Of a DNA stretch of 20,467 nt, positions 114 to 20,467 are shown one piece after another (within the stretch, counting starts at the first letter, position 1; every line of letters begins with the position of its first letter). The notes under the pieces were generated by a model. It was given only the letters and a program-made list of their open reading frames with translations, searched no databases and was not told the origin of the DNA. This DNA comes from a virus, in IMG/VR virus record IMGVR_UViG_3300029448_000434, positions 3,636 to 24,102 of that record. The stretch is one strand, 5' to 3'. The position numbers and the translations under genes were made by a program.

Positions 114-128
114 AGGTGTGGGTCACCT
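114..128 (+). repeat. Module-border element copy 1
   Basis: AGGTGTGGGTCACCT, with a further G113-C129 pair, gives a 6-bp dyad around a 5-nt centre. It lies in the gap between the 85-aa gene and the next leftward gene. It is one of seven same-orientation copies of GGTGTKGGTCACC in the window. Confidence 0.75.
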
Positions 129-2489: not shown

Positions 2490-4157
2490 TTAATAAGTGC
2501 CTGGTTCAGTGCTGTACTCCTGTTCCCTGGGCACATGTATTGGATCCATGAGAATCATGTATCGCAGGGCATCGACAGGATCCTTGGACGCACCCTTGTC
2601 TCCATCTGCATTGGTCCAGGTTCGGAGTGAGTAAATTAAGTTGTTGCAACAACTCGAAACATAAAGTTTCGGTTCGTTCAGAACAGACACCTCCTCGGAG
2701 AGATTATACGAAAATAGATTGTTAACAAGGGCACAAGACTCATCAATGTGGGTCATGGGTGCCGGGTGAAAAATAAGTCCATCTTTGGTGACCTTCCCTC
2801 CTGCACCTCTGTCTGGTTGAGCCAGGAGATCGATCAAACTCTGGTTATGTTCTCTCTGGGAAAGAACTGCTGTTCGTCCTGCCCGGGGATCAATGTATCG
2901 TTCGTGTATCCCTCCATCTGTCCTCTCCAGTTCCCGTATGAGTTGCTTGTATTGATGCAGGTTCCTCCCACAATCAGCAGTCTGGGCCGGGCCTTTTTTC
3001 CCATCCATTTTCGATGATGGAAGTGCCCACTCTCCGTAATCGTCGAAGTTGGGCCACTCCCGGTATATAAAGGCTCGACCAAGTTCGTCCACCTTCAGCC
3101 AAAGCATGAACCAGTTACGGTCCCCTGGAGTTGGGTCAACGACCATGTAGTTAGTTCCCTGGATAGGGATCTGACTTGGTGCCACAATATTTCTGTCAGT
3201 GAACCTTGGAAATTTTCCAACCACCGGGTTTGACACATATCCGTATGCACGGATCTCAACCTCCTCCCTGGTTCTGCCCTTCAAGGTCTTTTGCATGGCA
3301 TCAAAGGGTGAGAATGGATTCCATTCACTGAAGAACCAGAAAAGCTTTCCACTGCCATTCCTGGTCCTTGCCTGGTAGGGCATGTGCCCTTTGGGGACAC
3401 CGGCAATGGTTGAGGGAGTCTTGTCGTCAATCAACCTGGCAGGTCTGGTCTCTTCAATGATCGCACCTTCACAGGCATCTTTTACGGTTGGAGTGTAGCC
3501 ATCTATTGGTGTAAAAGTTACGACCATTTTGCCTCTTCGACTGATTAAACGGTAGCGAAGTGTAGTGATCCAGGACATGGGGACCAACTCATCCATCCAG
3601 ATCAAATCCAATTCTGTCCCCTCCAGGGTGCCTAAGTCCTGGGTATAATTTTTAAACCAACACTGGGATCCGTTCGGCCCAACGAAGGTTCGGTTTGAGA
3701 AACCATTCTTCTGGGAGAAGGCTACATTGACAACTGACCTGACACTCCGCTTCTGTTCCTTCCATTGTAGTGGGAGATAGGTGTGAACGTATGGTTGCTG
3801 GACTTGGATCGAGGAATCATTGCTTGAATGGCAGCACCAGACGCTTTTCCTGGGGGAGTTCACCATTGCCCTTACAACCCTCGATGCCACATACCGGGAC
3901 TTGCCTCCCCTGTTACCACCAAACAGGTAAACAATGTCAATCCCTGGATCGTCCAAGGCCTTGTCTGCATCCTCCCAGTGACTGAACACTCCAGTGGTGT
4001 TGTGCCAGTCCGCACCGTAACTGTAGGGATCCAATTCCTCCAGGCGGATGAGTTCCTCCCGTTTGGCGTAAAAAGCCTCCAGGGTTCCTGAGTCAATCAG
4101 GTCCTGGACCTGGGACTTGGTTGGTGTTGGGATTATAGGGTGCGGAGTCCAGTTCAT
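2490..4157 (-). CDS. terL: Terminase large subunit (packaging ATPase-nuclease)
   Basis: This is the motor and headful or site-cutting nuclease that pumps DNA into proheads through the portal. The ATPase domain shows Walker A GGNRGGKS (residues 80-87), Walker B LDLIWMDE (183-190) with catalytic E190, and the coupling motif VVTFTP (212-217). The RNase H-like nuclease domain shows the expected acidic set: D341 in MVVDPT, D423 in YIDPRAG, and D527/D530 in KDPVDALRYM. At 555 aa it is full length. The ATG follows the upstream gene's TGA by three bases, with a weak GGTGA SD. Its position between a small-subunit candidate and the portal completes a standard packaging module. Confidence 0.96.
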   Translation of the reverse strand: MNWTPHPIIPTPTKSQVQDLIDSGTLEAFYAKREELIRLEELDPYSYGADWHNTTGVFSHWEDADKALDDPGIDIVYLFGGNRGGKSRYVASRVVRAMVNSPRKSVWCCHSSNDSSIQVQQPYVHTYLPLQWKEQKRSVRSVVNVAFSQKNGFSNRTFVGPNGSQCWFKNYTQDLGTLEGTELDLIWMDELVPMSWITTLRYRLISRRGKMVVTFTPIDGYTPTVKDACEGAIIEETRPARLIDDKTPSTIAGVPKGHMPYQARTRNGSGKLFWFFSEWNPFSPFDAMQKTLKGRTREEVEIRAYGYVSNPVVGKFPRFTDRNIVAPSQIPIQGTNYMVVDPTPGDRNWFMLWLKVDELGRAFIYREWPNFDDYGEWALPSSKMDGKKGPAQTADCGRNLHQYKQLIRELERTDGGIHERYIDPRAGRTAVLSQREHNQSLIDLLAQPDRGAGGKVTKDGLIFHPAPMTHIDESCALVNNLFSYNLSEEVSVLNEPKLYVSSCCNNLIYSLRTWTNADGDKGASKDPVDALRYMILMDPIHVPREQEYSTEPGTY

Positions 4158-5064: not shown

Positions 5065-5263
5065 GTCTCAGGGAGTGGAAGGTGGTTGTATGTAATCTTC
5101 CAACCGCCCTTCCAATTATCTGTCGATTTAAGCGTCTGTCAAGGTGTTGGTCACCTGGAATGCTTTCGACTGTTGATGTTGTTATGTTTCCGATCCTTGG
5201 AAAGTACAGGACTCCTGGGAGGCCTGCAAGGGGCCTGGAAGTGCCTGTAACCCCATCCGCCAC
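5057..5263 (-). CDS. Doubtful 68-aa frame between zinc ribbon and terS
   Basis: A GTG-initiated frame overlaps the zinc-ribbon gene in another phase and ends eight bases inside terS, an arrangement that would allow coupling. It has no SD, and its start lies inside the second zinc knuckle of the neighbour. The translation (PGVLYFPRIGN and RRLNRQIIGRAVGRL) is not low-complexity, so it could be a real small gene or the product of a frameshift from the zinc-ribbon frame. It is included because nothing else covers 5065-5150. Confidence 0.28.
   Translation of the reverse strand: MADGVTGTSRPLAGLPGVLYFPRIGNITTSTVESIPGDQHLDRRLNRQIIGRAVGRLHTTTFHSLRHA
5142..5156 (+). repeat. Module-border element copy 2
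   Basis: AGGTGTTGGTCACCT is a 5-bp dyad with a 5-nt centre. It overlaps the stop codon (TGA at 5153-5151) of the zinc-ribbon gene and lies about 80 bases before terS. Same orientation as the other six copies. Confidence 0.8.
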
Positions 5264-5915: not shown

Positions 5916-6069
5916 CTCTGTTCTTTCGTTTCTGCCAGTGAAGTGTTTTCGTCATTCCTCGTTTTTCGAAGAACCTGTCACAGGCTTCACTGATGCTGTT
6001 CATGTCTCCTATTGCCAGTCCAGGACCAGCGGTGTCGTAATCTGCTTGCGGTATGTTTTCGTCATTCAT
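5872..6069 (-). CDS. Small hypothetical protein, 65 aa, coupled
   Basis: The ATG (6069) overlaps the TGA of the upstream PD-(D/E)XK-like gene (ATGA), and the 3' end overlaps the next gene by about 44 bases. The N-terminal half is acidic (MNDENIPQADYDTAGPG). The middle, ISEACDRFFEKRGM, looks helical. The C-terminus is highly charged (QKRKNRDDDKNRKNKDQ). No domain is recognised. The coupled start is the main evidence that it is translated. Confidence 0.6.
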   Translation of the reverse strand: MNDENIPQADYDTAGPGLAIGDMNSISEACDRFFEKRGMTKTLHWQKRKNRDDDKNRKNKDQPGK

Positions 6070-6524
6070 ATCTCTAATTCCTCCCTGGGCACCATGTAGA
6101 TCAGATCAGATCCTCTGGGTTCCAGGTACTTGTCTTGTGTCATTGTTTCTGCATCGATGGTACCAACCAGGGTGTACTCATTACCCACCTCCTCAACCAT
6201 GGCTATGAGGTCCACCTCCTGGTAAGATTTCCGACATGCCATGAGGTCTGAATCCACCATGGAAGTTGTCTTGACATCGACCTTCTCTCCTGTTGGCAGA
6301 ATGCAGTCCCACTTGTCCGGGCCAGGTGTAAGGTCCGGGAATATGTTGTGCATCTTGCAAAAAGCTATTTCTCCCCTGGCACCTTGCTTGTCGTACTCAA
6401 CAAACTTGGCCGGGGTGTGGTTTGTGTTCTTCTGACAGTGACCACGTGCGTCCGAGAATGAAGTCCTGGCAGTGCCTATTGCGTTCGCTATGTTCACCTC
6501 ATATTCGTTCAGTTTTATTTTCAT
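6066..6524 (-). CDS. PD-(D/E)XK nuclease-like phage protein
   Basis: The 152-aa protein carries GARGEIAF at residues 48-55 (candidate E52), WDC (D73) after a GPD turn, and KVDVKTT (D83-V-K85). Together these make an E...D...(D/E)xK pattern as in PD-(D/E)XK nucleases. The following DLIAMVEEVGNEYTLVGTID block fits the remaining beta strands of small phage proteins with this layout. It may act as an endonuclease in recombination, repair or host-DNA breakdown; the substrate cannot be told from sequence. The start overlaps the dNMP kinase stop (ATGA) and the stop overlaps the next gene's ATG. Confidence 0.7.
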   Translation of the reverse strand: MKIKLNEYEVNIANAIGTARTSFSDARGHCQKNTNHTPAKFVEYDKQGARGEIAFCKMHNIFPDLTPGPDKWDCILPTGEKVDVKTTSMVDSDLMACRKSYQEVDLIAMVEEVGNEYTLVGTIDAETMTQDKYLEPRGSDLIYMVPREELEI

Positions 6525-7018
6525 AGTAACAGGGTGTTGGTCACCTTGGTTAAAAATGCTTCCTCACTTGCGTCATTGATGAGGGTGATGTGAGGTGCTA
6601 CACGATCCACGCTGGTCTCACTGGTGTGACCGTCTCCAGAGTCGTCCGTTGACGGTCGGATGATGCGGACCACCGTCCCACCTGAACTTCGTACCCAGTC
6701 CGCTTCGAACGGGAACCTGATGTCATCGATCACAACCAGGTCGCTTTGTGGGGCATTCAATTCAATGCGGTCCTTCAGCATGTTAAGGAATATTTCATTC
6801 CCAAATTTCTGCTTCAATGCCTCACCCAATGTCTGCATGACTGGTCTCAATACCGGTTTCGGAGTTTCCTCCAGGGGACCAAAAATATTGACCACATACT
6901 CCTTGATGGGAGACGCTAGACTGTCCCTGTGAACAAGGCCTGGGTGATTCGCTTCCAGGTGCCTGGCCGCACTTGTCTTGCCTGACCATTTCCTTCCTAC
7001 CAGTCCAACTATCTTCAT
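6521..7018 (-). CDS. Deoxynucleoside monophosphate kinase
   Basis: Phosphorylates dNMPs to dNDPs with ATP to feed phage DNA synthesis. The P-loop is at residues 8-15 (GRKWSGKT). The VVIDDIRFPFEA block (about 95-106) and the HTSE motif (131-134) are typical of T4 gene-1-like and related phage dNMP kinases. At 165 aa it is a compact, complete family member. The ATG shares one base with the preceding stop (TGATG). The last codons (VTNTLLL) are formed by repeat element 3, so the C-terminus may have been reshaped by that element. It opens the replication module together with the helicase upstream. Confidence 0.85.
   Translation of the reverse strand: MKIVGLVGRKWSGKTSAARHLEANHPGLVHRDSLASPIKEYVVNIFGPLEETPKPVLRPVMQTLGEALKQKFGNEIFLNMLKDRIELNAPQSDLVVIDDIRFPFEADWVRSSGGTVVRIIRPSTDDSGDGHTSETSVDRVAPHITLINDASEEAFLTKVTNTLLL
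6532..6546 (+). repeat. Module-border element copy 3, inside a gene's last codons
   Basis: GGGTGTTGGTCACCT, read on the coding strand, supplies codons for VTNTL near the C-terminus of the dNMP kinase. Copy 4 encodes the same VTNTL near the end of the unrelated RlpA gene. An A-rich run follows (TTGGTTAAAAAT). Confidence 0.8.
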
Positions 7019-8557: not shown

Positions 8558-9026
8558 TGTCCACCTCCTCTCTCCACTGACGGTCTTCCTTGGTCGGACC
8601 ATCACCTCTCATCTCAGACCCTGCGTTGTAGACCAGGGCAAAAAGCTTGTCTTTAGTTATTTGATCAGTTCTTTGATTAGTTGCTTGATTAGTTAGTGTA
8701 TCTGTTTTGCGACAGGTAATGTCCCTATTTTGCGACACGTAGTGTATCTCTTTTGATACAGGTAATGTATCTCTTTTGATACACTTCCCTGAGTTCGTTG
8801 CCGTCAATGTTCTACTCCTTCCTCTCCATCCCTGGGTGATCCAACCGTTTTCGATCAGTCCTTCCAGGTGACGGTAAAATGTGTTTTTTGACATGCCCAG
8901 GGTCTTTGAAATCTTCGCTTTGTTTTCAAAGCACTGTCCTCTCATGCATATGTAGCAGTAAATGGATACCTGGGTATGGGTCCAACCCTGTTCAAATATC
9001 CATTGTGGAATGTAAGGTTTTTTCAT
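8541..9026 (-). CDS. Winged-helix replication initiator (lambda O-like role)
   Basis: The 161-aa protein probably binds the origin and loads the downstream helicase. Residues about 15-70 form a winged helix: THTQVSIYCYI, then ISKTLGMSKNTFYRHLEGL and ENGWI. The start is ATG 9026, which overlaps the preceding TGA (ATGA); upstream in-frame ATGs would overlap the previous gene by more than 90 bases. Residues about 79-122 are encoded by tandem DNA repeats (four 23-bp iterons, then three 12-mers). Because 23 is not a multiple of three, the peptide there is a non-repeating linker. This matches the plan of lambda gene O: binding domain, origin inside the gene, then a helicase-contact tail. The role is inferred from fold, origin and synteny. 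Confidence 0.8.
   Translation of the reverse strand: MKKPYIPQWIFEQGWTHTQVSIYCYICMRGQCFENKAKISKTLGMSKNTFYRHLEGLIENGWITQGWRGRSRTLTATNSGKCIKRDTLPVSKEIHYVSQNRDITCRKTDTLTNQATNQRTDQITKDKLFALVYNAGSEMRGDGPTKEDRQWREEVDSAEFG
8661..8696 (+). repeat. Three AT-rich 12-mers beside the iterons
   Basis: There are three head-to-tail 12-bp units: TTGATCAGTTCT (8661-8672), TTGATTAGTTGC (8673-8684) and TTGATTAGTTAG (8685-8696). They directly abut the 23-bp iterons and encode TNQA, TNQR and TDQI on the - strand. Such AT-rich short direct repeats are typical DNA-unwinding elements. Confidence 0.85.
8697..8788 (+). repeat. Four 23-bp iterons inside the initiator gene
   Basis: Units start at 8697, 8720, 8743 and 8766 with an exact 23-bp period. 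All share TGT..CT.TTTTG..ACA, and units 1 and 3 end in GGTAA. Units 3 and 4 contain the dyad TGTATC-N6-GATACA; units 1 and 2 carry GCGACA as the right half. About two helical turns per unit would place sites on one DNA face. The pattern is that of initiator-binding iterons. Confidence 0.88.
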
Positions 9027-10891: not shown

Positions 10892-11266
10892 TCAATCCTG
10901 GCCTTTCAGGGTGTTAGTCACCCGTCTTAAAATTCTGTATTCGACCTTAATCAGACCTGCCTCTTTTTCTGCCAGTCTCTCAAATGCTGCCCGGGAAAGA
11001 TCAAGATCCCTGCCCTTCACAAACGGACCTCGATCGGTCACTGTGACGATCACGTGGTTGGGCCCCAGGGTTACCAGGAGGACGGTCCCGAATGGCAAGG
11101 ATCGGTGGGCAGTTGTCAATTTTCTTGGATCAAAAACCGATCCCGATGCGGTCAACATTCCCTTGTACCGGTCTCCATACCAGGAGGCTGTACATTGTTT
11201 TGGTTTGCTTCCCCCGTTAACTGCAACAATTGTTGCAACAACTATTAATGCTATTATTTTCTTCAT
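10892..11266 (-). CDS. Exported RlpA-like double-psi beta-barrel protein
   Basis: RlpA-fold proteins cleave peptidoglycan glycan strands lacking stem peptides. The 124-aa product starts at ATG 11266 (ATGA overlap with the upstream gene) with a Sec-type signal MKKIIALIVVATIVAVNGG. The fold then appears: TASWYG (26-31), LTASGSVFDPRKLTTAHRSL (38-57, H54), PFGTVLLVT, DRGPF (78-82, putative catalytic Asp) and GRDLDLSRAAFERL. There is no lipobox and no SPOR domain, unlike cellular RlpA, so it should be a soluble periplasmic or secreted enzyme. It could serve in lysis or envelope remodelling; no other endolysin is visible here. The last codons overlap repeat element 4. Confidence 0.85.
   Translation of the reverse strand: MKKIIALIVVATIVAVNGGSKPKQCTASWYGDRYKGMLTASGSVFDPRKLTTAHRSLPFGTVLLVTLGPNHVIVTVTDRGPFVKGRDLDLSRAAFERLAEKEAGLIKVEYRILRRVTNTLKGQD
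10909..10923 (+). repeat. Module-border element copy 4, inside a gene's last codons
   Basis: GGGTGTTAGTCACCC is a 5-bp dyad with a 5-nt centre and the only copy with A in the centre. On the coding strand it encodes VTNTL near the end of the RlpA-like gene, as copy 3 does in the dNMP kinase. TTAAAAT follows four bases later. Confidence 0.78.
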
Positions 11267-11879: not shown

Positions 11880-11981
11880 AAAAAAAAATGTTTACATAAA
11901 ATGTTACTGGTCTATCGCTTGCCTTGGGTGTTGGTCACCTCGTTAAAAAAAAGTGTTGAGGTGACTAAGATTGCAATCATA
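11880..11981. promoter_or_regulatory. Regulatory gap with dyads left of the RHH pair
   Basis: This gap holds an A9 tract (11880-11888), a short dyad ATGTTTACAT (11888-11897), repeat element 5, and an 8-bp perfect inverted repeat GTCACCTC (11934-11941) / GAGGTGAC (11958-11965) separated by 16 bases containing A8. The dyads suggest repressor binding or an RNA hairpin. I cannot assign a convincing -35/-10 pair on either strand. Confidence 0.45.
11926..11940 (+). repeat. Module-border element copy 5
   Basis: GGGTGTTGGTCACCT lies between the leftward genes and the integration module. Its right arm also forms half of a larger 8-bp inverted repeat ending at 11965. CGTTAAAAAAAA follows, as after copies 3 and 4. 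Confidence 0.8.
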
Positions 11982-12194
11982 ATGTCGGTTATGGCTAACA
12001 TGAGACATCCTGACAAACGGTGTCTCGGTGCTTGGGTGGACAAGGATCTTTACCTGGATTGGCAGGCAGAGGTTGAGTCCCTGGGGCAGACTTTGACTGA
12101 GAGGGTGACAACCCTTCTGCACCGAGACTTGAAAATACTAACTCAGAAACGACTTCAGAAGAAGTCAGGTCCAGGTGATTCGCCAGGTGTTTAA
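11982..12194 (+). CDS. Ribbon-helix-helix (CopG-like) regulator, + strand
   Basis: The 70-aa product reads MSVMANMRHPDKRCLGAWVD and continues KDLYLDWQAEVESLGQTLTERVTTLL: a beta strand, helix, TLT turn and helix, as in MetJ/Arc/CopG-type DNA-binding dimers. A basic tail follows (KRLQKKSG). Several Met codons (11982, 11991, 12000) are possible starts and none has a good SD. The strand-helix-turn-helix is also seen in the 57-aa protein at 14330-14503. Its 3' half is antisense to another RHH-like gene. Likely a repressor of the lysogeny or early region. Confidence 0.5.
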   Translation: MSVMANMRHPDKRCLGAWVDKDLYLDWQAEVESLGQTLTERVTTLLHRDLKILTQKRLQKKSGPGDSPGV

Positions 12195-12261
12195 TCGCTT
12201 CCATGGTGTCTTGTGAAATCATCAATCGCACATTTTCATTTTCCGTCAAATTATTTTCCAT
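11995..12261 (-). CDS. Ribbon-helix-helix-like regulator, - strand, antisense to its neighbour
   Basis: The first 47 residues have a clear RHH pattern: ENVRLMIS (strand), QDTMEAIKHLANHLD (helix), LT turn, SSEVVSELVFSSL (helix). An AAGGGA SD lies a few bases before ATG 12261. The remaining about 40 residues (SPSQSKSAPGTQPLPANPGK) are Pro/Ser-rich and antisense to the + strand RHH core, so the tail may be unimportant. It would head the leftward transcript. Either both genes are real and mutually antisense, or one is a shadow; the SD favours this one, while the other has the better full-length sequence. Confidence 0.5.
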   Translation of the reverse strand: MENNLTENENVRLMISQDTMEAIKHLANHLDLTSSEVVSELVFSSLGAEGLSPSQSKSAPGTQPLPANPGKDPCPPKHRDTVCQDVSC

Positions 12262-12396: not shown

Positions 12397-13332
12397 ATGA
12401 CCGCACAATGGCATTGTGGGGGTCTGGGGTTCGACTCCCCACGGCTCCACCATACAAAACCGGCAGTCAATCTGTCAGATCAAGACCTAGATGTCATCAG
12501 TGACATGTGGTCCAAAGGCATCTCATTGGCTCAAGTCTGGTCAGATTGGCGGAGGTTGTATCTTGCTAGTGACCAACAAGTCAAGACTTGTATTGAATTA
12601 TTTTTAAGTCACCTCAAAGCGTCAGGCAGATCTCCGCAATACATTAAGGAATTCGGTTGGGTTTTAAACAAGCTCGACTCCTATGTAGACACCTCCATTC
12701 CGCTTTGCCAGGTCACCACAAAAAGTTGGTGGCGTGCCCTCGATTCTATGAGGGCAGGAAATACGGCAAGACGTAAAGTTTCAGTGTTTTTAAATTGGTG
12801 TTTGAAGCAAGGTTTCATAAAGGAGTCTATTAACATTCCCAGCAAACCTTCCTACCCATCTGGTGAGATCGAAGTGCTTTCAAATGACGAGGTCTGCTCG
12901 TTAATCAAAACCTGTCCTTTAGATTTACAAGGACATCTATGGTTGTGTTTATGCATGGGGTTAAGGGTGGCAGAAGCGTCCAGGGTCCAGCACTTGGCGA
13001 TAACAGACACTCACCTGGTCGTTGGTGCCCAGGCTTCAAAAACAAAGTCCAGGCGAGTCCTGGACGTTCCTGAGGGACATCAAAAGTATACCAGGCTAAT
13101 TAGACCCCAGGTCAATCTCAGGAAGCGAATGGAATGCCTGAGGGTGGAAGCAGGTTTGTCCAGGTGGCCCAGGAACTGTATGCGGCATACTGCAGCCTCC
13201 CATTGGCTCAATAGACTTCAGTCAGCAGAGTCTACCTCACTCCACCTGGGCAATTCTCCGGTCATGTTACACCGGCACTACAAGGCCTTGGTGACACGGG
13301 ATGAGTCAGAGGAATTCTTCAGTCTCTGGTAG
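12397..13332 (+). CDS. int: Tyrosine recombinase integrase
   Basis: Catalyses site-specific integration and, with a directionality factor, excision. The core-binding domain covers about residues 45-140. The catalytic domain shows GLRVAEAS (R190), SKTKSRR (K215/K217), NCMRHTAAS (R263, with Asn260 where His is usual), LGNS (N286 for the usual His or Trp) and HRHY with nucleophile Y295. LGNSP.M..RHY is a known variant form in phage integrases. From ATG 12397 the first 20 residues are simply the translated tRNA core. ATG 12505 (MWSKGIS) would give 275 aa with the folded domains intact and is a strong alternative. No SD supports either. Integration would place this gene directly behind an intact host tRNA-Ala. 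Confidence 0.92.
   Translation: MTAQWHCGGLGFDSPRLHHTKPAVNLSDQDLDVISDMWSKGISLAQVWSDWRRLYLASDQQVKTCIELFLSHLKASGRSPQYIKEFGWVLNKLDSYVDTSIPLCQVTTKSWWRALDSMRAGNTARRKVSVFLNWCLKQGFIKESINIPSKPSYPSGEIEVLSNDEVCSLIKTCPLDLQGHLWLCLCMGLRVAEASRVQHLAITDTHLVVGAQASKTKSRRVLDVPEGHQKYTRLIRPQVNLRKRMECLRVEAGLSRWPRNCMRHTAASHWLNRLQSAESTSLHLGNSPVMLHRHYKALVTRDESEEFFSLW
12403..12452 (+). other. attP: attP core: 3' half of tRNA-Ala(GGC)
   Basis: The sequence folds as a tRNA 3' half. Anticodon stem: GCACA (12403-12407) against TGTGG (12415-12419), with one mismatch at the base. Loop: ATGGCAT with anticodon GGC at 12410-12412. Variable loop: GGGTC. T-arm: TGGGG-TTCGACT-CCCCA (12425-12441). Acceptor strand: CGGCTCC, then A and encoded CCA at 12450-12452. 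T at position 70 fits the alanine G3:U70 identity pair. No D-arm or 5' acceptor strand exists upstream, so this is not a functional tRNA gene but a phage-borne crossover core. The host target would be the 3' end of tRNA-Ala(GGC). Confidence 0.85.
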
Positions 13333-13436: not shown

Positions 13437-14333
13437 ATGAAGAAAAATTACAAAGTCACAATCAACGGAGTCACCCACACCAGAAACTCACACCGCGATT
13501 ACGCATTCGCAGGGGAATGGGTCAGCAGAAAAACAGGCAAAGGGAACGGACAGGTCACCTACTACGGTCCCGGTATTGAAGTGAAACCACGCTGGAAGAT
13601 GGACGAGAAGGAATGGAAATTCATTTCTTCCGAAGTGGAGATTGTGACCAAGGCCAAACACGTAGCAAAAGCGAAAGATTTTATACCAACTCGTCGGTCG
13701 GTCAAAGATGACAAAAAACCTGTCAAAAAAGTCTCAAAAACTCAGCAAATTATGGACGAATACAATGTGGACAAGCTTTCTGCTGAAAAAATAATGAGGG
13801 CAAAGACAAGCAAGGCTGCACTGGAAGCAGTTACTGATATTTTTTCGAAGAAAGGTCTGTCCGACCTTCAGGCAAACCAGGCAGGCAAAAATCTTAAAGG
13901 AGTGATTCAGGCTTTGCATGGAAAAATAGAAGTCCAAGGAGGTCTGTTTAACATTGCCAAGCAACGCCGGGCAGTGATCAGGGAAGCAGTTATCAAAGCA
14001 TGTGGGCACCGCTTCAGTGGTCGATACATCATCGAGACTCTGTCCAGGGTATTCCGCGAAATCGAACTGCGAGATAACCCTGTAAAAGTTCTAAGCAAGC
14101 CTGCCAGCAAACGCCAAAACACGGGTGCCGTCCAATTAGTAAAAACATTCCAGTCGAAACATAAGGACATCAGCCTTGCTGAGATGGCTAAACTGTTTCG
14201 GGCAGCATCCACCCTGGCAGCGAAAATGGCCCAGGAAGAAGATGCCCTGGCTAACAGTGAGATTCACCCCAGGTATCGGCTGCAGAGTGATAGAGAAACT
14301 CACAAAGTTGCTGCAACAACCAAAGCAGCATGA
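13437..14333 (+). CDS. Basic 298-aa protein of unknown function
   Basis: Not recognised. The N-terminal 60 residues (YKVTINGVTHTRNSHRDYAF, then GEWVSRKTGKG and QVTYYGPGIEV) look like a small beta domain. They are followed by a Lys-rich linker (RSVKDDKKPVKKVSKTQQ) and a long helical region to the C-terminus (RRAVIREAVIKACGHRFSG, then FREIELRDNP). There is no signal or membrane segment. The gene is expressed from the dyad-controlled promoter and its stop overlaps the ATG of an RHH gene. Its first 440 bases contain no CCWGG, unlike almost everything around it, suggesting separate origin. It could be a DNA-binding regulator or the partner of the RHH protein; no function is claimed. Confidence 0.75.
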   Translation: MKKNYKVTINGVTHTRNSHRDYAFAGEWVSRKTGKGNGQVTYYGPGIEVKPRWKMDEKEWKFISSEVEIVTKAKHVAKAKDFIPTRRSVKDDKKPVKKVSKTQQIMDEYNVDKLSAEKIMRAKTSKAALEAVTDIFSKKGLSDLQANQAGKNLKGVIQALHGKIEVQGGLFNIAKQRRAVIREAVIKACGHRFSGRYIIETLSRVFREIELRDNPVKVLSKPASKRQNTGAVQLVKTFQSKHKDISLAEMAKLFRAASTLAAKMAQEEDALANSEIHPRYRLQSDRETHKVAATTKAA

Positions 14334-14503
14334 GCAGGTCAGACAATATGAAAGGGAATCTCAATGCCCAAAAAGAGATTTACCCGGCCAAGGCGAGCCT
14401 TAACATTCGGGCCAGGGCAGATAGCCTGGCCCGGTGGAAGGCCAAGGCCCAGGAGGAGGGCAAAACCCTCACTCAATGGGTAACAGATAGACTCAATAAA
14501 TAA
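14330..14503 (+). CDS. Small ribbon-helix-helix protein, coupled
   Basis: The 57-aa protein has its ATG overlapping the TGA of the 298-aa gene (ATGA). Residues 22-57 read ASLNIRARADSLARWKAKAQ and continue EEGKTLTQWVTDRLNK: a beta strand, helix, TLT turn and C-terminal helix, the CopG/Arc-type RHH fold. It resembles the + strand RHH protein at 11982 in its G-TLT turn and helix pattern. It is followed within five bases by a strong terminator, so it ends a two-gene operon. Such proteins usually bind the operator of their own operon; the dyad at 13361 is the obvious target. An internal ATG (codon 7) is an alternative start. Confidence 0.75.
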   Translation: MSRSDNMKGNLNAQKEIYPAKASLNIRARADSLARWKAKAQEEGKTLTQWVTDRLNK

Positions 14504-14507
14504 ATTC

Positions 14508-14532
14508 AGCCCGGTTCATGCCGGGCTTTTTT
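14508..14532 (+). terminator. Intrinsic terminator after the RHH gene
   Basis: A perfect 7-bp stem AGCCCGG / CCGGGCT with a 6-nt loop is followed by six T residues. It ends the rightward operon of the 298-aa and RHH genes. Confidence 0.92.
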
Positions 14533-14583
14533 GTGTAATTTTTAGCCTGTAAGCCTGGTCCTTAGAGGACAATGACTATTGCT

Positions 14584-14598
14584 TGGTGTGGGTCACCC
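14584..14598 (+). repeat. Module-border element copy 6
   Basis: TGGTGTGGGTCACCC shares the GGTGTGGGTCACC core with copy 1. It lies 15 bases before the radical SAM start codon and forms the left boundary of the radical SAM/glycosyltransferase cassette. Confidence 0.75.
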
Positions 14599-14613
14599 TC
14601 GTATGGTTCTTAG

Positions 14614-15534
14614 ATGAAAGACGGTTTGTATTGCAGTTCAGGCATGGACATGTTCTCAGTTGGTAGTGAAGGTAACGTCCATCGGTGCAATTTTATGGTC
14701 CGCAAAACGGAGACCATGATGGGCAACCTCCTGGACGACACCGTCAAAGTTAACGATGCCTACACGTATTGTCCTGTCCAAAAATGCGAGCAGATCTGCG
14801 ACCGTCACTGGTCCAGTAAAAAAGTATATGAATCAGGAGAAGAAACTGACCACCAGGGAGTCCAGGACGAAAGCGTCTATGAAGGCCTGACTAAGCCTGC
14901 CAGCATCATCTGGGCACCCTCCTGGGTGTGCAATTATAATTGTCACTATTGCGGTCTTCCAAGGGATACCAGGAAGGTTTTAGCCGATGAGTGGGTGCAA
15001 GGATTTTCCAGGTTCATAGAGGTCAACAAATTTGACGGAGGTCTGCTGCATACCAATGGAGGTGAACCTCTGTTCTATGAAGGGATCGGAAAGATTTTCA
15101 CTTACATGGCCTCCAAGAATTTTCAAATAGGATTGACCACCAACCTGTCATCGGACGTTTGGGGTAAAGTGGTCCATGCTGCCCCTCCAGAGGCCTGGAA
15201 GAGTATTAACTGCAGCATTCACCCAACGGAACCGAAGTTCTCCTGGGAGGTTTACAGTGGACGTATTCTGGCACTCCAGGCACTCGGTTACCCGGTAGGG
15301 ATGAACCTGGTTGGGCACCCCTCTCAGATAATGCTGGCACCCAGGTACGCAAAGTTCTGCAAGGACAACGGAATAAATTTTGCCCTGATCCCAATGGTAG
15401 GAAGCTTCGATGGATTCAACTTCAAGACCATTGACGACTACCCAGAGAAAATGAGGAAGATCATCAAGGACCTCTGTCCTGAGACGCTGGACGACAGAAA
15501 CAAATTCCTAAAAGGTGCCCGGGTTACAAACTGA
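14614..15534 (+). CDS. Radical SAM protein with an N-terminal SPASM-like cysteine region
   Basis: Radical SAM enzymes use a [4Fe-4S] cluster to cleave S-adenosylmethionine and start radical chemistry on a peptide or small substrate. The cluster motif is CX3CX2C at C106, C110 and C113 (VCNYNCHYCG), with the SAM-binding TNGGEPLF at 147-154. Unusually, the first 66 residues read like an auxiliary-cluster (SPASM/twitch) domain: C7SSGMDMFSVGSEGNVHRC25, MGNL, then C53, C58 and C62 (YCPVQKCEQICDRHW). Such domains normally follow the radical SAM core. A stop codon precedes the ATG in frame, so no upstream core is attached. There is no SD. It converges on the glycosyltransferase with an 11-base overlap. 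Substrate unknown; glycan, peptide or cofactor modification are all possible. Confidence 0.88.
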   Translation: MKDGLYCSSGMDMFSVGSEGNVHRCNFMVRKTETMMGNLLDDTVKVNDAYTYCPVQKCEQICDRHWSSKKVYESGEETDHQGVQDESVYEGLTKPASIIWAPSWVCNYNCHYCGLPRDTRKVLADEWVQGFSRFIEVNKFDGGLLHTNGGEPLFYEGIGKIFTYMASKNFQIGLTTNLSSDVWGKVVHAAPPEAWKSINCSIHPTEPKFSWEVYSGRILALQALGYPVGMNLVGHPSQIMLAPRYAKFCKDNGINFALIPMVGSFDGFNFKTIDDYPEKMRKIIKDLCPETLDDRNKFLKGARVTN

Positions 15535-16519
15535 ACAGGAATTTCTTCCAAAGTTTCTTGACCCTGGTTGCACTGAATTGTTCTCTGGCAACCTTGACTT
15601 GCTTCTCAGATAGGGACTGCAGCCATTCGGATGGATCCATGGTGAGGGCATCCTTCATCTTCATCTTGAGTGTCCAGGTATCCGGTGCCAATTGACTGCT
15701 GTCCAGGAGACCAGGCAGTGCTGTTTCCCACCCAGGCGATGACACCCCGAAAAGCGGAAGGCCAGTGAATAAAGCCTCCAGGAAGGCGAGTGTGTAGGGG
15801 GCAGGTTTAGTGCCTCCATACCACATGACTCGGTGCCTGGACAAATGCTTAAGGAAAGTATGGTAGTCAGGAGATCCCTGGTGGTGCTTCTCACCGTGGT
15901 TGAGAATGCCATACAGTGCTGCAGGCAGGTCGCTGGTTACATGGTCCCAGCAATGAGTTCTGCAGACCTTGGCCCGGTTGGCAATGTTGTTGCAACAACC
16001 TGCAATGACTTTTTCTTCACCTGTCCAGGTGTGGAAGTCTTCTGGGTATTTGCCGAAAGGAATAATTGCATCATGCCCCTGGTAATCCTTCCTGTCCTGG
16101 TAACCGTCCCAGTAACGGACTATTTTGACTCCACTGTCCTGGACTCGCTTAATGTGCCTCACCTCATCCTTGGGGACCGTCTGCCCTATGTCTCGCCAAA
16201 TGACTTTCTTTCCCTGGAATGCTTCCAGGTTGTTGTAAATAAAGGACCACTTGTGCATGACGATGATGGCATCATATGGTTCCAATGCCTGGGGAGTTAT
16301 GTACAGCTTGTGATCTTGCCCTGGGGATGCCGGGATAGAGTTCCATGCGTCGATCCATTCCTGGTTCCTGGGGATGTTTAAAGGGAGTCTGAGCCTGGCC
16401 CCTTTTGATGGTTTCCAGTAGGCACCTGGAGACATCACGTTGACGCCAGGTATCTCAGTGAGCATCCGTAATTCGTCATACTCCAGGACCTCATGACAGG
16501 GAAGGTACAAAATGTTCAT
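15524..16519 (-). CDS. GT-B-like glycosyltransferase
   Basis: The 331-aa protein begins MNILYLPCHEVLEYDELRML, a beta strand-turn-helix start like GT-B N-domains. A second Rossmann-like half contains VMWYGGTKPAPYTLAFLEAL and FTGLPLFG (232-258), the nucleotide-sugar-binding E-x-G-P region of GT4-like enzymes with E248 as the likely phosphate/ribose contact. There is no membrane segment, so it is cytoplasmic or peripheral. It probably transfers a sugar to a cell-surface glycan, a phage component or DNA; the acceptor is unknown. It faces the radical SAM gene, and both lie between repeat copies 6 and 7, which marks the pair as cargo. The promoter probably lies in the A/T-rich tract 16540-16570. 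Confidence 0.75.
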   Translation of the reverse strand: MNILYLPCHEVLEYDELRMLTEIPGVNVMSPGAYWKPSKGARLRLPLNIPRNQEWIDAWNSIPASPGQDHKLYITPQALEPYDAIIVMHKWSFIYNNLEAFQGKKVIWRDIGQTVPKDEVRHIKRVQDSGVKIVRYWDGYQDRKDYQGHDAIIPFGKYPEDFHTWTGEEKVIAGCCNNIANRAKVCRTHCWDHVTSDLPAALYGILNHGEKHHQGSPDYHTFLKHLSRHRVMWYGGTKPAPYTLAFLEALFTGLPLFGVSSPGWETALPGLLDSSQLAPDTWTLKMKMKDALTMDPSEWLQSLSEKQVKVAREQFSATRVKKLWKKFLFSL

Positions 16520-16572
16520 TACTCTTTTGTACGAGGTTTGCTTTCTAAAAAAAATCTTTTAAAAAAAACAAT

Positions 16573-16600
16573 TGACGGGTGTTGGTCACCCTGTGATCCT
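16573..16600 (+). promoter_or_regulatory. Possible + strand promoter over repeat copy 7
   Basis: TTGACG (16573-16578), a 16-base spacer and a TGT-extended GATCCT (16595-16600) resemble a weak extended -10 promoter. Repeat element 7 occupies the spacer, so a protein bound there would block it. No convincing + strand protein follows, but a strong terminator does at 16727-16772. Confidence 0.3.
16577..16591 (+). repeat. Module-border element copy 7
   Basis: GGGTGTTGGTCACCC, a perfect 5-bp dyad with the TTGGT centre. It lies upstream of the glycosyltransferase and downstream of the giant gene, in direct orientation to copy 6 across a two-gene cassette of about 2 kb. Confidence 0.8.
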
Positions 16601-16726: not shown

Positions 16727-16772
16727 CCCCTCTGCCCTTGTTGAACACCCTGGGCAGGGGGGTCTTTTTTTT
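16727..16772 (+). terminator. Strong rightward terminator facing the giant gene's end
   Basis: An 11-bp stem (16727-16737 / 16752-16762, one G-T pair) with a 14-nt loop is followed by C and eight T residues. The T tract runs into the - strand stop codon of the giant gene. It works only for + strand transcripts, none of which is an evident gene here. The rest of 16592-16726 shows no convincing coding sequence. Confidence 0.8.
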
Positions 16773-19700
16773 ACTTACCTAGTTCGGCCAGGTGTCTTTC
16801 CGCTTTTTCAATGGTCCCAAACACGGCACCTATTCTTCGTCCCCCTGGGCCATAAACCCTGACCCCTGACCTGCTGCTGGTCTGCACTGCCCTGTGACCT
16901 TCGTCATTGCTGTACACTGCCCCACCACGGTCATTGAGTTTCCTGGTAGGGGAAAACTTAACCATGGCATGGTAAAGCCCGGCATGAGTTGTCTCCACTC
17001 CCTTTGCCGAATCCCAGATCCAGTGATGTATCACGTGAGGTGCCACTGCCAGGGGAATCTTGTTCCCTCCAGGGGCCACTTTTCGGAGGTCCTTTATCCG
17101 GTTGTTTATTCGGTTGAAGAGATCCTTCCTGACCGATGCCTGGCCACTGGCAACCTTACCCAGGGCAGCACGTTTCTTTGCTTCCTGGGATGCCATTGTT
17201 GTTGAGCCTTTACCGGTCAACCAGACGTTGAGTTCAACAGCATCAATGGTGGGTGCCGATCCAAGTCCCAGGAGGTGACCGATGAAACCTTTTTTGCCAT
17301 CGGCAATGCCCTTGATTTTCTTCAGCAATGGTTCCAGTTTTTTAGGATCTCCCTTCGTCTTATTGATCTCTTCGGTGAGAGGCAGGATCCGGGAAAGGTT
17401 GAACTGGTTTTTCTGTTTTATCTCACCAAGTCCACCTGCCCTGTATGTTTGGCTTTTCATTTTCCCTGACTTGTCCGGGTACATGCCTGACTCCCTGGTG
17501 CGGAAATCCTGCCTACCAAATGCATCACGCATTGCCATCCCATTCTCCCAGGCCTCCTGGTTAATGACTCCTCGTTCGATTGCCTCCAGGGCAGTTTGTC
17601 CAGGCTCAGATCCCAACCACCAGGCAGCGAGTTCTTCGGGTCTCATCTGCCATTGTTTTTTCTTGCCCCGGGTCAAGTACATCGGGTCTGGATCAAAATC
17701 GATCCCCATCTGATCCGCTTTCTTTTTCAAGGTCGTCAGATCGATGGCATCGGCACCAACACTTGCCATCGTGATCCAGTACGCTTTTGCAACATCCCTT
17801 GGGGAAATCTTGCCTTGGACCAGGTCCTGTCGTTTACCTACTATGTAGTCAACTACCGGTTCCAGGTACTCAGGGAAACTTCCAAGCAGACGAAGCATGT
17901 TGGAATTGCTGGTCAAACGAATGCTTGCCAGGGCATCTCTCAGGTCCTTTGCAGAGTGATCTGTTGCCCACTGTTTTATTTCATCGGCGGAGAGTCCCTG
18001 CCTGCTGGGAGAGTACCTCGGTAAACCTTCCTGTTTGACCTTCTCACGTACACTTTCAGGTAAGGCTACATAGTTTGACTCGATGCCATGCTGCAAGGTC
18101 TTACGGACCATCCTGAGGCGTTTTCCGTTGTCATCCTTGAGGGACTTCCAGAGACGTAAATCCCGGAACCGTTGATCGTACCATTTACGCATACCTGCAC
18201 CACCCACTTTCAATCCTTGACCGTCCAACTGTCGGACCCCAACATTGTTTGGTTTTTGTGCCAGCAGTCGTTCGGTCAGTTCCTTGCCGATCATCTCTGG
18301 GAGTTTTGACTCGGGTGCGTCTAATACTTTCGGACTTCCTTGCCGGTCATGTTGAACTGCAGTCAGCGTCTTTCCATTGTACGAGATCCTGTCGTAATAT
18401 GTTGCCAGGGAGTTTCGCCTGATTTGCTGGTCACCGGTTGTCCAGGCAATGGCATCATATCCACCCTCGGCTGCAAGGTTTAGCATCCGTTTCATGGCCA
18501 GTTCACTCCAGGACTTTTTGAATGGGGCGTTTTGGGCCTTGAGCATGGTATTGCGTTGCTTGGTCTGTAAAGTTATAAGCCTGCTTCTGTCTTCAGAAGT
18601 GAATGGCTCGTATTCTTCAGCCATGAATTTTTCGTAGGCATCATCGACTTTACTCATACGCCTTAAATGATCAGAACTTCGTGCGTGATGAACAACGCGA
18701 TCTTCAAGTCGAACTTTCTCGACCTGTCGTTGTTCATTTTTTTTCAGACGTATAAGTTCTTCTGTCTCCTTGTCGGACATTATTTCAGCATACCCCTTCC
18801 TTCCTTTCTGATGCCAGTCGGACTGTACTTCCTCCAGGAATAATACACGTTCACCATCAGGACCGATACGGTCGTCATGTCTGACATGGGCGATAATGTC
18901 TTCCTGGTCGAAGTGGTCTGCGTTTTGAAAAGTTCCATACCGCTTGTCTACCTCTTCCGACCTGTTCAAAACGATTAACTTTTCAGCGTAAGTTCCTTCA
19001 ACTTTTCCTGACTCGGTCATCGACTCCCATCTGCCTGTTGCTGTTTTGTCTGCAGGTGAGATAATGAACTGTTCCTCAAATTCTTCCCTTAGAATTATGT
19101 CTGCCTGCTTTGCTGCGTCCGTTTCGTTGTTATAAACATCCCCTTGCCAACCATAATCATCGTCAAGGTTGACAACCACATGGTCGTTCGCACGATCTTT
19201 CAAGCCGAAGTGATTCACCCAGTCATCAGGCATATCACCTACTTTTTTGATGGCAGCAAGATCACTTCTAAACATGCTTGACCACTCCTTGAACCACTGG
19301 TCACGCATGTGGACTTCAGCCTCTTCCCTTGTATCGAATGTGTGGTGACTCAGGTTCATTACTCCGTACGTGTCTTCAATAACGAATTCACCAGCCTCAT
19401 ACCCAACCGGTTCATGAACGGTCACCTGGTTTGCCTGGAGGTACTCCTGGACCTGTTCCTTTGTCACCCTGGGGTTATCAGCCAGGAAGGTGTCCAGGCC
19501 AGTGTCCTCAATTTCCTCCTGGCGTACTCCGCCTCTCTCCAATGCCTTCAGGTATTGCTGTCCGGTGCCTCGTTTCTGCTTAACCTCTGCCAGGACTTTT
19601 TCTGCTTTGGAGTAAAGACCAAGCATGTCCCTGGAGGGTGAGTATTTGACTGGACCAACCTTGAGCTTGTCGAGCATGACGCCTGAGTTCATGAAGACGT

Positions 19701-20467
19701 AGGTGTTGAGTTCACCTGCCTTGGGCCTGAATGTCGTCAGGTCCCGTGCATCCATGAAGTCTTTAAGGAAAGCTTTCTCCTTGAACCCAATGACCCACGG
19801 ATAATTCTCGTTCAGGTCAGGTCTGTAGGTGGGTTTTGATCCATCGTATTCAGCCAGGGCAAGCAGCATGTGTGGACCTATATCCCGGTAGGAAGGTTCC
19901 CTGGTCAGGTCTGCAATAGAGTCGGTGTCCAACCCTAGTTTTTTCAACTCCCCTTGAGGTATAGGAAGTCTTTTTGCGTCAAACTTTTCATAGAAGAAAG
20001 CAGACTTGTTCCAGGGGATTCTTTCAAAGTTTTCGCTAAGGTCTTTCGGGGTCTTTATGCTTGCTGCCACCTTACGGGTCTCGTCTGTGATTTTCTTAGC
20101 CTTGCTGACGACCAAGGGGCTGACTGCAGCCGTGATGTGCTTGTTTGCAAGTTTGGCTGAAACTTTTCCAGTGGCAACTGCCTCCTCCCACTTCTTCCCA
20201 AACAGTCTTCTGGCAAGCTTGGAGTTCAGGTGATTCCTGGGATGCATACTGGTCAATCCAACCAATGGGAAACCGTCTCGTCTCAGCCTGGAAATAAATA
20301 TATTGGCGGAACCTTCGTCAGTGAACCCCCACATATCAAACAGAGACAGATGACCTGCACCACCTCTGAAAGGTATAGGTTCACCGTTCGCTTCAACGTC
20401 CTTTGAAGTCGAAGAGTCCGTAGTCAAAACCTGAACGTCTCTTCCTTCAAATTCCTGGAGAGTGGCA
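16771..20467 (-). CDS. Giant polyvalent-type phage protein, 5' end beyond the window
   Basis: The frame is open to the right edge. The first possible start in view is only a TTG at 20427, with 13 more sense codons before it, so at least 1,231 residues are seen and the N-terminus is missing. Numbered from 20427: QYLKALERGGVRQEEIEDTG near 290; LFLEEVQSDWHQKGRKGYAE near 525; APFKKSWSELAMKRMLNLAA and IAWTTGDQQ at 632-667; GLKVGGAGMRKWYDQRF near 740. These blocks recur in very large phage proteins of the polyvalent (PLxRFG-bearing) kind, thought to be co-injected with DNA and to carry several effector domains. [KR][YF]SP[ST]R motifs occur near 258, 803 and 1,154. The C-terminal 400 residues are unassigned. 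It is probably an internal virion protein. Confidence 0.8.
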   Translation of the reverse strand, partial: ATLQEFEGRDVQVLTTDSSTSKDVEANGEPIPFRGGAGHLSLFDMWGFTDEGSANIFISRLRRDGFPLVGLTSMHPRNHLNSKLARRLFGKKWEEAVATGKVSAKLANKHITAAVSPLVVSKAKKITDETRKVAASIKTPKDLSENFERIPWNKSAFFYEKFDAKRLPIPQGELKKLGLDTDSIADLTREPSYRDIGPHMLLALAEYDGSKPTYRPDLNENYPWVIGFKEKAFLKDFMDARDLTTFRPKAGELNTYVFMNSGVMLDKLKVGPVKYSPSRDMLGLYSKAEKVLAEVKQKRGTGQQYLKALERGGVRQEEIEDTGLDTFLADNPRVTKEQVQEYLQANQVTVHEPVGYEAGEFVIEDTYGVMNLSHHTFDTREEAEVHMRDQWFKEWSSMFRSDLAAIKKVGDMPDDWVNHFGLKDRANDHVVVNLDDDYGWQGDVYNNETDAAKQADIILREEFEEQFIISPADKTATGRWESMTESGKVEGTYAEKLIVLNRSEEVDKRYGTFQNADHFDQEDIIAHVRHDDRIGPDGERVLFLEEVQSDWHQKGRKGYAEIMSDKETEELIRLKKNEQRQVEKVRLEDRVVHHARSSDHLRRMSKVDDAYEKFMAEEYEPFTSEDRSRLITLQTKQRNTMLKAQNAPFKKSWSELAMKRMLNLAAEGGYDAIAWTTGDQQIRRNSLATYYDRISYNGKTLTAVQHDRQGSPKVLDAPESKLPEMIGKELTERLLAQKPNNVGVRQLDGQGLKVGGAGMRKWYDQRFRDLRLWKSLKDDNGKRLRMVRKTLQHGIESNYVALPESVREKVKQEGLPRYSPSRQGLSADEIKQWATDHSAKDLRDALASIRLTSNSNMLRLLGSFPEYLEPVVDYIVGKRQDLVQGKISPRDVAKAYWITMASVGADAIDLTTLKKKADQMGIDFDPDPMYLTRGKKKQWQMRPEELAAWWLGSEPGQTALEAIERGVINQEAWENGMAMRDAFGRQDFRTRESGMYPDKSGKMKSQTYRAGGLGEIKQKNQFNLSRILPLTEEINKTKGDPKKLEPLLKKIKGIADGKKGFIGHLLGLGSAPTIDAVELNVWLTGKGSTTMASQEAKKRAALGKVASGQASVRKDLFNRINNRIKDLRKVAPGGNKIPLAVAPHVIHHWIWDSAKGVETTHAGLYHAMVKFSPTRKLNDRGGAVYSNDEGHRAVQTSSRSGVRVYGPGGRRIGAVFGTIEKAERHLAELGK

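Follow-up and report, generated by a model that had tools for sequence, protein, structure and literature searches.

Operator-like 13-bp repeats and an exchangeable slot for glycan genes in a group of uncultured temperate phages

In an uncultured temperate phage a radical SAM gene and a glycosyltransferase gene are enclosed by two direct copies of a 13-bp repeat, and this arrangement raises the question of whether the repeats are the ends of a mobile unit or serve the phage in another way. The window, that is the whole stretch of DNA analysed here (20,467 nucleotides), corresponds to positions 3636-24102 of a 24,102-bp IMG/VR record. Relatives were gathered by searches with TerL and the integrase, all of them being metagenomic contigs and mostly incomplete, and gene calls followed simple ORF rules and were supported by homology.

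Results and Discussion

The locus and its surroundings

The features of the locus are listed in Table 1. As the preliminary description had proposed, a radical SAM gene and a glycosyltransferase gene lie convergently (with an overlap of 11 bp) between copies 6 and 7 of the repeat, which are in direct orientation; this observation is confirmed.

Table 1. Features of the window discussed in the text
Feature	Position	Strand	Remarks
Repeat copy 1 (GGTGACCCACACC)	115..127	-	
Repeat copy 2	5143..5155	-	abuts strong promoter-like TTGACA-16-GATAAT before the small terminase gene
Repeat copy 3	6533..6545	-	8 bp before start of ORF 6066-6524
Repeat copy 4 (GGTGACTAACACC)	10910..10922	-	
Repeat copy 5	11927..11939	-	between divergent leftward operon and RHH1
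RHH1, ribbon-helix-helix protein, 67 aa (MANMRHPDKRCLGAWVDKDL...)	11991..12194	+	profile match; candidate reader of the repeats
RHH2, second small conserved ORF	11995..12261	-	overlaps RHH1 on the opposite strand, convergent
Tyrosine integrase	12397..13332	+	5' end overlaps tRNA 3'-half-like sequence
Small RHH/HicB-like ORF	14330..14503	+	directly 5' of cargo; counterparts at that place in G001, G016, G017
Intrinsic terminator-like hairpin	14508..14527	+	5' of left repeat
Predicted leaderless sigma70-like promoter	14579..14607	+	aligned with five relatives
Repeat copy 6, left repeat (GGTGTGGGTCACC)	14585..14597	+	predicted operator, in cargo promoter spacer
rSAM-A, radical SAM protein, 306 aa	14614..15534	+	CxxxCxxC at 106-113
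GT-A, GT-B/GT4-like glycosyltransferase, 331 aa	15524..16519	-	predicted structure; convergent with radical SAM gene
Repeat copy 7, right repeat (GGTGTTGGTCACC)	16578..16590	+	58 bp upstream of glycosyltransferase start
Terminator-like hairpin	16747..16763	+	between right repeat and giant gene
Giant polyvalent protein gene, 3' part	16771..20467	-	right border of slot

A tRNA 3'-half-like sequence (GGGGTTCGACTCCCC...CCACCA) was found at about 12414-12452, over the start of the integrase gene, and this stretch is probably attP. The N-terminus of the integrase of G002 and G004 suggests another tRNA-like end. An ADP-ribosyltransferase domain of polyvalent proteins (ART-PolyVal, E=2e-15) is part of the 2717-aa giant protein encoded by G002 (L051 3438-11591). 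Searches of the window with Rfam and ARAGORN gave no matches. Among cultured phages neither cargo protein has a relative and the best TerL match was 30%, and no relative was found in the bacterial genomes searched with the radical SAM and TerL proteins.

The cargo proteins

The product of the first cargo gene, rSAM-A, matches the radical SAM family PF04055 of Pfam below threshold (E=3e-5). Its motif C106-x3-C110-x2-C113 is invariant across seven homologues and its structural model (pLDDT 78) matches PqqE, anSME, SuiB and MoaA, so that both the CxxxCxxC motif and the radical SAM fold of this superfamily are present. An unusual characteristic of this protein is a Cys-rich SPASM/twitch-like region at the N-terminus, a region normally placed at the C-terminus. 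Residues 4-59 are similar to STM4011 positions 201-252, the match to the SPASM profile being weak, and five cysteines of this region are conserved without exception in seven homologues, one of which is encoded on a 173-kb contig (L097). As the N-terminus is thus similar to the auxiliary-cluster region that other radical SAM proteins carry at their C-terminus, the order of the domains seems to be permuted.

GT-A has no match in Pfam or in any sequence family. Its model (pLDDT 91) shows a GT-B fold of the GT4-like type, with BshA and tll1591 as best matches (E about 1e-11), and by this predicted structure it is classed as a GT-B glycosyltransferase. G002 and G004 have a further GT4 glycosyltransferase gene within their block of structural genes (L051 17883-18911), hinting at virion glycosylation.

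An exchangeable slot for glycan genes

About 20 relatives carry exchangeable glycan genes in the slot between the integrase gene and the giant polyvalent-protein gene; a search with the 3' end of the latter gene returned 25 records, and 20 of these were new to the analysis. The slots that could be read contain GT-A with rSAM-A, GT-A with C347, GT-A with B188 and B213, or rSAM-B with B188 and B213. Other slot genes encode GT2-like, Gly_transf_sug and Nucleotid_trans proteins, a hexapeptide transferase and methyltransferases. Because the slots of relatives hold glycan-type genes in changing combinations, the cargo most likely serves to modify a glycan of the host or the virion, and the types of cargo genes point to one of the roles first suggested from the pair itself. 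The cargo enzymes would probably add and alter sugar on the host surface or the virion, and the 2-kb block would be the present content of a glycan-gene slot in a phage family.

It is also conceivable, although in our opinion unlikely, that phage DNA or a peptide, and not a surface or virion glycan, is the target of the cassette. The best fold matches of rSAM-A, of the PqqE/anSME/SuiB type, do act on peptides and proteins, and the window contains a dNMP-kinase-like gene (6521-7018; assigned by eye), but neither a precursor-peptide gene nor a nucleotide hydroxymethylase was recognised in the ORF list of the window, and the slot partners elsewhere are glycosyltransferases, hexapeptide transferase and methyltransferases.

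The dependence of the cassette on its flanking repeats did not hold in either direction. In L085-L090 and L096 the glycosyltransferase or radical SAM gene is present without repeats, and the relatives that lack integrase and RHH1 possess cargo and no repeats; the cargo therefore does not require the repeats. Conversely, repeats are found on both sides of other cargo in G004, G016, G017 and G009, and in G008 only a remnant of B213 is left between its two sites. No clean case of an empty site with a single repeat was seen among the slots read. Different cargo at the same place was found, between the same two repeats in G002 and G004. The proposal that the flanking repeats allow gain or loss of the cassette as a unit consequently stands in so far as the contents between them differ exactly from repeat to repeat in these two genomes; it fails in so far as the repeats belong to a genome-wide and probably regulatory family and are not the ends of the unit. 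The 38.1-kb sequence of G022 (L129-L130) is circularly permuted relative to G021, its contig ends lying inside the cargo slot.

A lineage-specific family of sites

The repeat, of which GGTGTTGGTCACC is representative, is a 13-bp near-palindrome of the form GGTG-N5-CACC. The 24.1-kb record contains 8 matches to this form where 0.65 would be expected, and seven family copies are in the window. The remaining match lies within the glycosyltransferase gene (15883), differs in its spacer, was left out of the seven-copy family and is probably due to chance. A looser search allowing 3 mismatches gave a weaker excess (8 vs 3.2). Integron-like or transposon ends were considered and rejected, no transposase having been seen and the repeats not being confined to the cargo.

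Over 9 relatives 73 sites were found, 39 of them non-coding (4.3 expected). As many as 45 of the 73 precede a start by no more than 100 nt, where 8.0 would be expected, and others are at gene ends or inside genes. The site-bearing genomes of the window's group have about 7-15 sites each, where 0.4-1.5 would be expected, and many site positions are kept between genomes. The orientation relative to transcription is weakly biased (36 same vs 19 opposite, P=0.03). Five site types exist among the relatives, each lineage with its own 5-bp spacer: GGTGACC[AC]ACACC in G000 and G015, GGTGACTAACACC in G001, GGTGACTGACACC in G002 and G004, the core TGACTAACA in G016, G017, G021 and G022, and GGTGTAATACACC in G008 and G009. 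A version of the site was found in every integrase-bearing relative examined with the exception of G020, in which no site family was found despite the presence of an integrase and an RHH1 homologue. In G012, G023 and G025-G029, which have no integrase match, a search for the site family was negative.

A candidate regulator next to the integrase

In the window's group and in the G016 group a protein of 58-70 aa, RHH1, adjoins the integrase. Single sequences of RHH1 gave no Pfam match, whereas its profile matches SvtR of virus SIRV1 best (2kel, E=6e-5), followed by ParG and NikR, which assigns it to the ribbon-helix-helix fold. RHH1, integrase and sites co-occur and all three are absent from the slots without integrase.

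The strand of RHH1 predicted to contact DNA varies together with the spacer of the sites: RCLGAWV (G000, G015) is paired with ACC[AC]A, RCISCWV (G002, G004) with ACTGA, and KCLAAWL (G001, G016, G017, G021, G022) with ACTAA. The match holds in the seven genomes with clear homologues, G021 and G022 following the G016 type, and this covariation spans few lineages (about five). Homologues are weak in G008 and G009. The case of G001 is informative, as its core genes are near those of G002 and G004 (DnaB 79% to G004) yet it shares the type of both strand and spacer with G016; DnaB of G004 and G016 are only 37% identical. RHH2 covaries together with RHH1 and, the two forming an adjacent pair, the covariation fits either of them as the binder. 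The two ORFs (11991-12261) overlap at their 3' ends, with site copies near each start in some relatives. The pair could be a lysis-lysogeny switch.

On the grounds of a genome-wide and lineage-specific family, of the covariation of spacer and RHH1 and of the left copy being placed in the predicted cargo promoter, we read the repeats as regulatory sites, that is, operators comparable to stoperators, and this explanation taken as a whole seems to us probable. Seven or more operators would be read by a phage-wide regulator, most likely RHH1, which is predicted to bind the sites, perhaps with its convergent partner RHH2.

A site inside the predicted cargo promoter

The predicted cargo promoter of the window consists of TTGCTT (14579-14584), a 17-bp spacer holding the site, TATGGT (14602-14607) and 6 nt before the ATG at 14614. 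In all six genomes checked the predicted promoter of the first cargo gene, whichever gene this is, has TAnnnT exactly 6 nt 5' of the start codon and the site just upstream, the other bases being different: TTGCTT-site-CTCG-TATGGT-TCTTAG-ATG in the window, TGGACA-site-TGTC-TAAAGT-TGATTG-ATG in G001, TGGACA-site-AGGG-TAGCGT-CTGTTA-ATG in G002, TGGACA-site-AGGG-TAGGCT-GTTTCG-GTG in G004, and TTGCAA-18-TAAATT-GGTTGT-GTG in G016, G017 being similar. A generic promoter scan of the window did not list this promoter, which is explained by its weak -35 (TTGCTT).

No Shine-Dalgarno sequence was found at the start of the first cargo gene, and the start appears to be leaderless. The left operator would be situated between -35 and -10, with transcription starting at or next to the start codon, and a regulator bound there would be expected to repress the cargo promoter. 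Any gene put into the slot would then come under the phage regulator. An operator in this position would predict a cargo that is silent in the prophage rather than lysogenic conversion.

Exchange of cargo at the sites

The DNA of G002 and G004 is 91-94% identical. This similarity breaks off precisely at the left site and picks up again precisely at the right site. Between these sites one genome has the 1.9-kb rSAM-A/GT-A pair and the other, G004, a 3.2-kb four-gene rSAM-B set. While the core genes of G004 are 95-99% identical to those of G002, its cargo is common to G016 (B188 90%, rSAM-B 74%). Swaps of other genes, likewise bounded by sites, were also seen in the pairs G016/G017 and G021/G022. 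Exchange bounded by the repeats is thus found for the cargo of G002 and G004 and partly in the other pairs. Altogether 8 edges of homology blocks are at sites, against 2.9 expected for sites at random gene junctions (P=0.005), G002/G004 being the only pair significant by itself (P=0.003). The designation of the sites as proven recombination hot spots was set aside, given that the gene-junction controls offered moderate support only.

These breaks are what would be expected if the repeats were recombination joints, with homologous or illegitimate recombination between two copies gaining, losing or swapping the cassette, and the mixed ancestry of G004, with cargo akin to G016 and core akin to G002, points the same way. 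Against this, the same cargo is carried by many relatives that have no repeats at all, the sites are genome-wide and in regulatory positions, several breaks have no site, 13 bp is short for homologous recombination, only one pair is significant alone and a clean empty site was not found. As the explanation of the repeats we regard recombination joints as possible but on the doubtful side. Such a role may add to the operator role rather than replace it, and the operators may double as exchange joints. A fuller version, which we advance tentatively, is that the operators are module joints, glycan genes being swapped from operator to operator into a standing leaderless promoter with an operator spacer, so that the cargo would be at once under phage control and the specificity would coevolve with the tiny RHH regulator.

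Two further readings concern what recognises the sites. Many of them contain GGTG(A) and precede a start codon by 1-30 nt, and GGTG could pair with CACC, so the repeats might act in RNA as start-associated translational elements or as hairpins sequestering the Shine-Dalgarno sequence (GGUG-loop-CACC). We find this very improbable: in G016, G017, G021 and G022 most sites are ATGACTAACACC, in which the stem is broken, both orientations occur, including at every cargo promoter, the site in the promoter spacer is upstream of the likely RNA start, and the spacer covaries with a ribbon-helix-helix strand. The hairpin was rejected as a general form on account of the unpaired arms in the G016 group. 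Alternatively the operators could be read by another phage protein, either the tyrosine integrase acting as repressor in the manner of MrpR of SPbeta or a protein encoded outside the known contigs. MrpR is indeed a recombinase-fold repressor that binds a dispersed 15-bp SPbeta element (PMC10516654), and the sites also track the presence of the integrase. Nevertheless the integrases of G001, G002 and G004 are 73-76% identical to that of the window and follow the core phylogeny, whereas the spacer follows the type of RHH1, notably in G001, which makes a reader other than the RHH pair rather unlikely.

Comparison with known systems

The stoperators of Cluster A mycobacteriophages such as L5 and Bxb1 are 13-bp asymmetric sites present in 20-30 copies per genome, some of them in promoters, and vary with the regulator (PMC6550527, PMC9283540). 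The operators proposed here are likewise 13 bp, many per genome, in part inside promoters and variable with the candidate regulator. Unlike stoperators, they number about 7-15, are near-palindromic and have a weak orientation bias, and where the stoperators have a helix-turn-helix repressor and an elongation block, a ribbon-helix-helix protein is predicted here. Many copies of one short site were found, with a consensus that differs with the candidate repressor RHH1, but not the prevalence of one orientation (36 vs 19, P=0.03). Because the orientation is mixed and the binding is a prediction, we did not class the sites of the window as stoperators.

The SAS of Cluster K mycobacteriophages is also a 13-bp repeat, located close before the start codons of many genes (PMC3203893), and in this many of the sites described here resemble it, others being placed at gene ends or inside genes; they differ in occurring in both orientations and in the spacer of a leaderless promoter, and in having a lineage-specific core. 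In SPbeta the 15-bp element SPBRE is scattered over promoter regions and is bound by the master repressor MrpR (PMC10516654). The sites of the window's group are similarly dispersed over promoter regions of a temperate phage, SPBRE being different in its 15 bp and in its recombinase-fold repressor where a ribbon-helix-helix protein is predicted here. As far as the PeSL of T4-like phages are described through PMC4503421, where they are cited, they are dispersed regulatory repeats at which phage genes shuffle; the parallel is in this shuffling, while PeSL combine a promoter with a stem-loop and the present sites are 13-bp, operator-like and belong to temperate phages.

The cargo itself resembles moron loci for surface glycan modification, with sugar-modifying genes including a glycosyltransferase placed between integrase and late genes. 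It differs from them in a cargo promoter with the phage's own operator-like site, in the combination with a radical SAM gene and in a slot that is always filled in the relatives seen. What appears to set this group apart from the known systems is a predicted RHH regulator, a putative operator in a leaderless cargo promoter and sites bordering exchangeable glycan genes.

For this uncultured group of temperate phages a readable code would thereby be gained, in which the 5-bp spacer of a 13-bp site predicts the type of regulator, and perhaps also immunity groups, from sequence alone. Moreover the arrangement offers a concrete route by which surface or virion glycan genes could be exchanged between phages with phage control being kept, and it suggests a use of the cargo during lytic growth and not a constitutive expression from the prophage.

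Other repeats and palindromes

A second palindrome, GTTGTTGCAACAAC, is present in about 3 copies in the window (2640-2655, 11230-11246 and 15986-16000). Next to one copy of the repeat, both G001 and G002 have a longer perfect palindrome (AGAGTTGTTGCAACAACTCT or close to it). Tandem 23-bp repeats (TAGTGTATCTNTTTTGNNACAG) are located at 8694-8784 of the window, in the gene adjoining the DnaB helicase gene, and resemble origin iterons.
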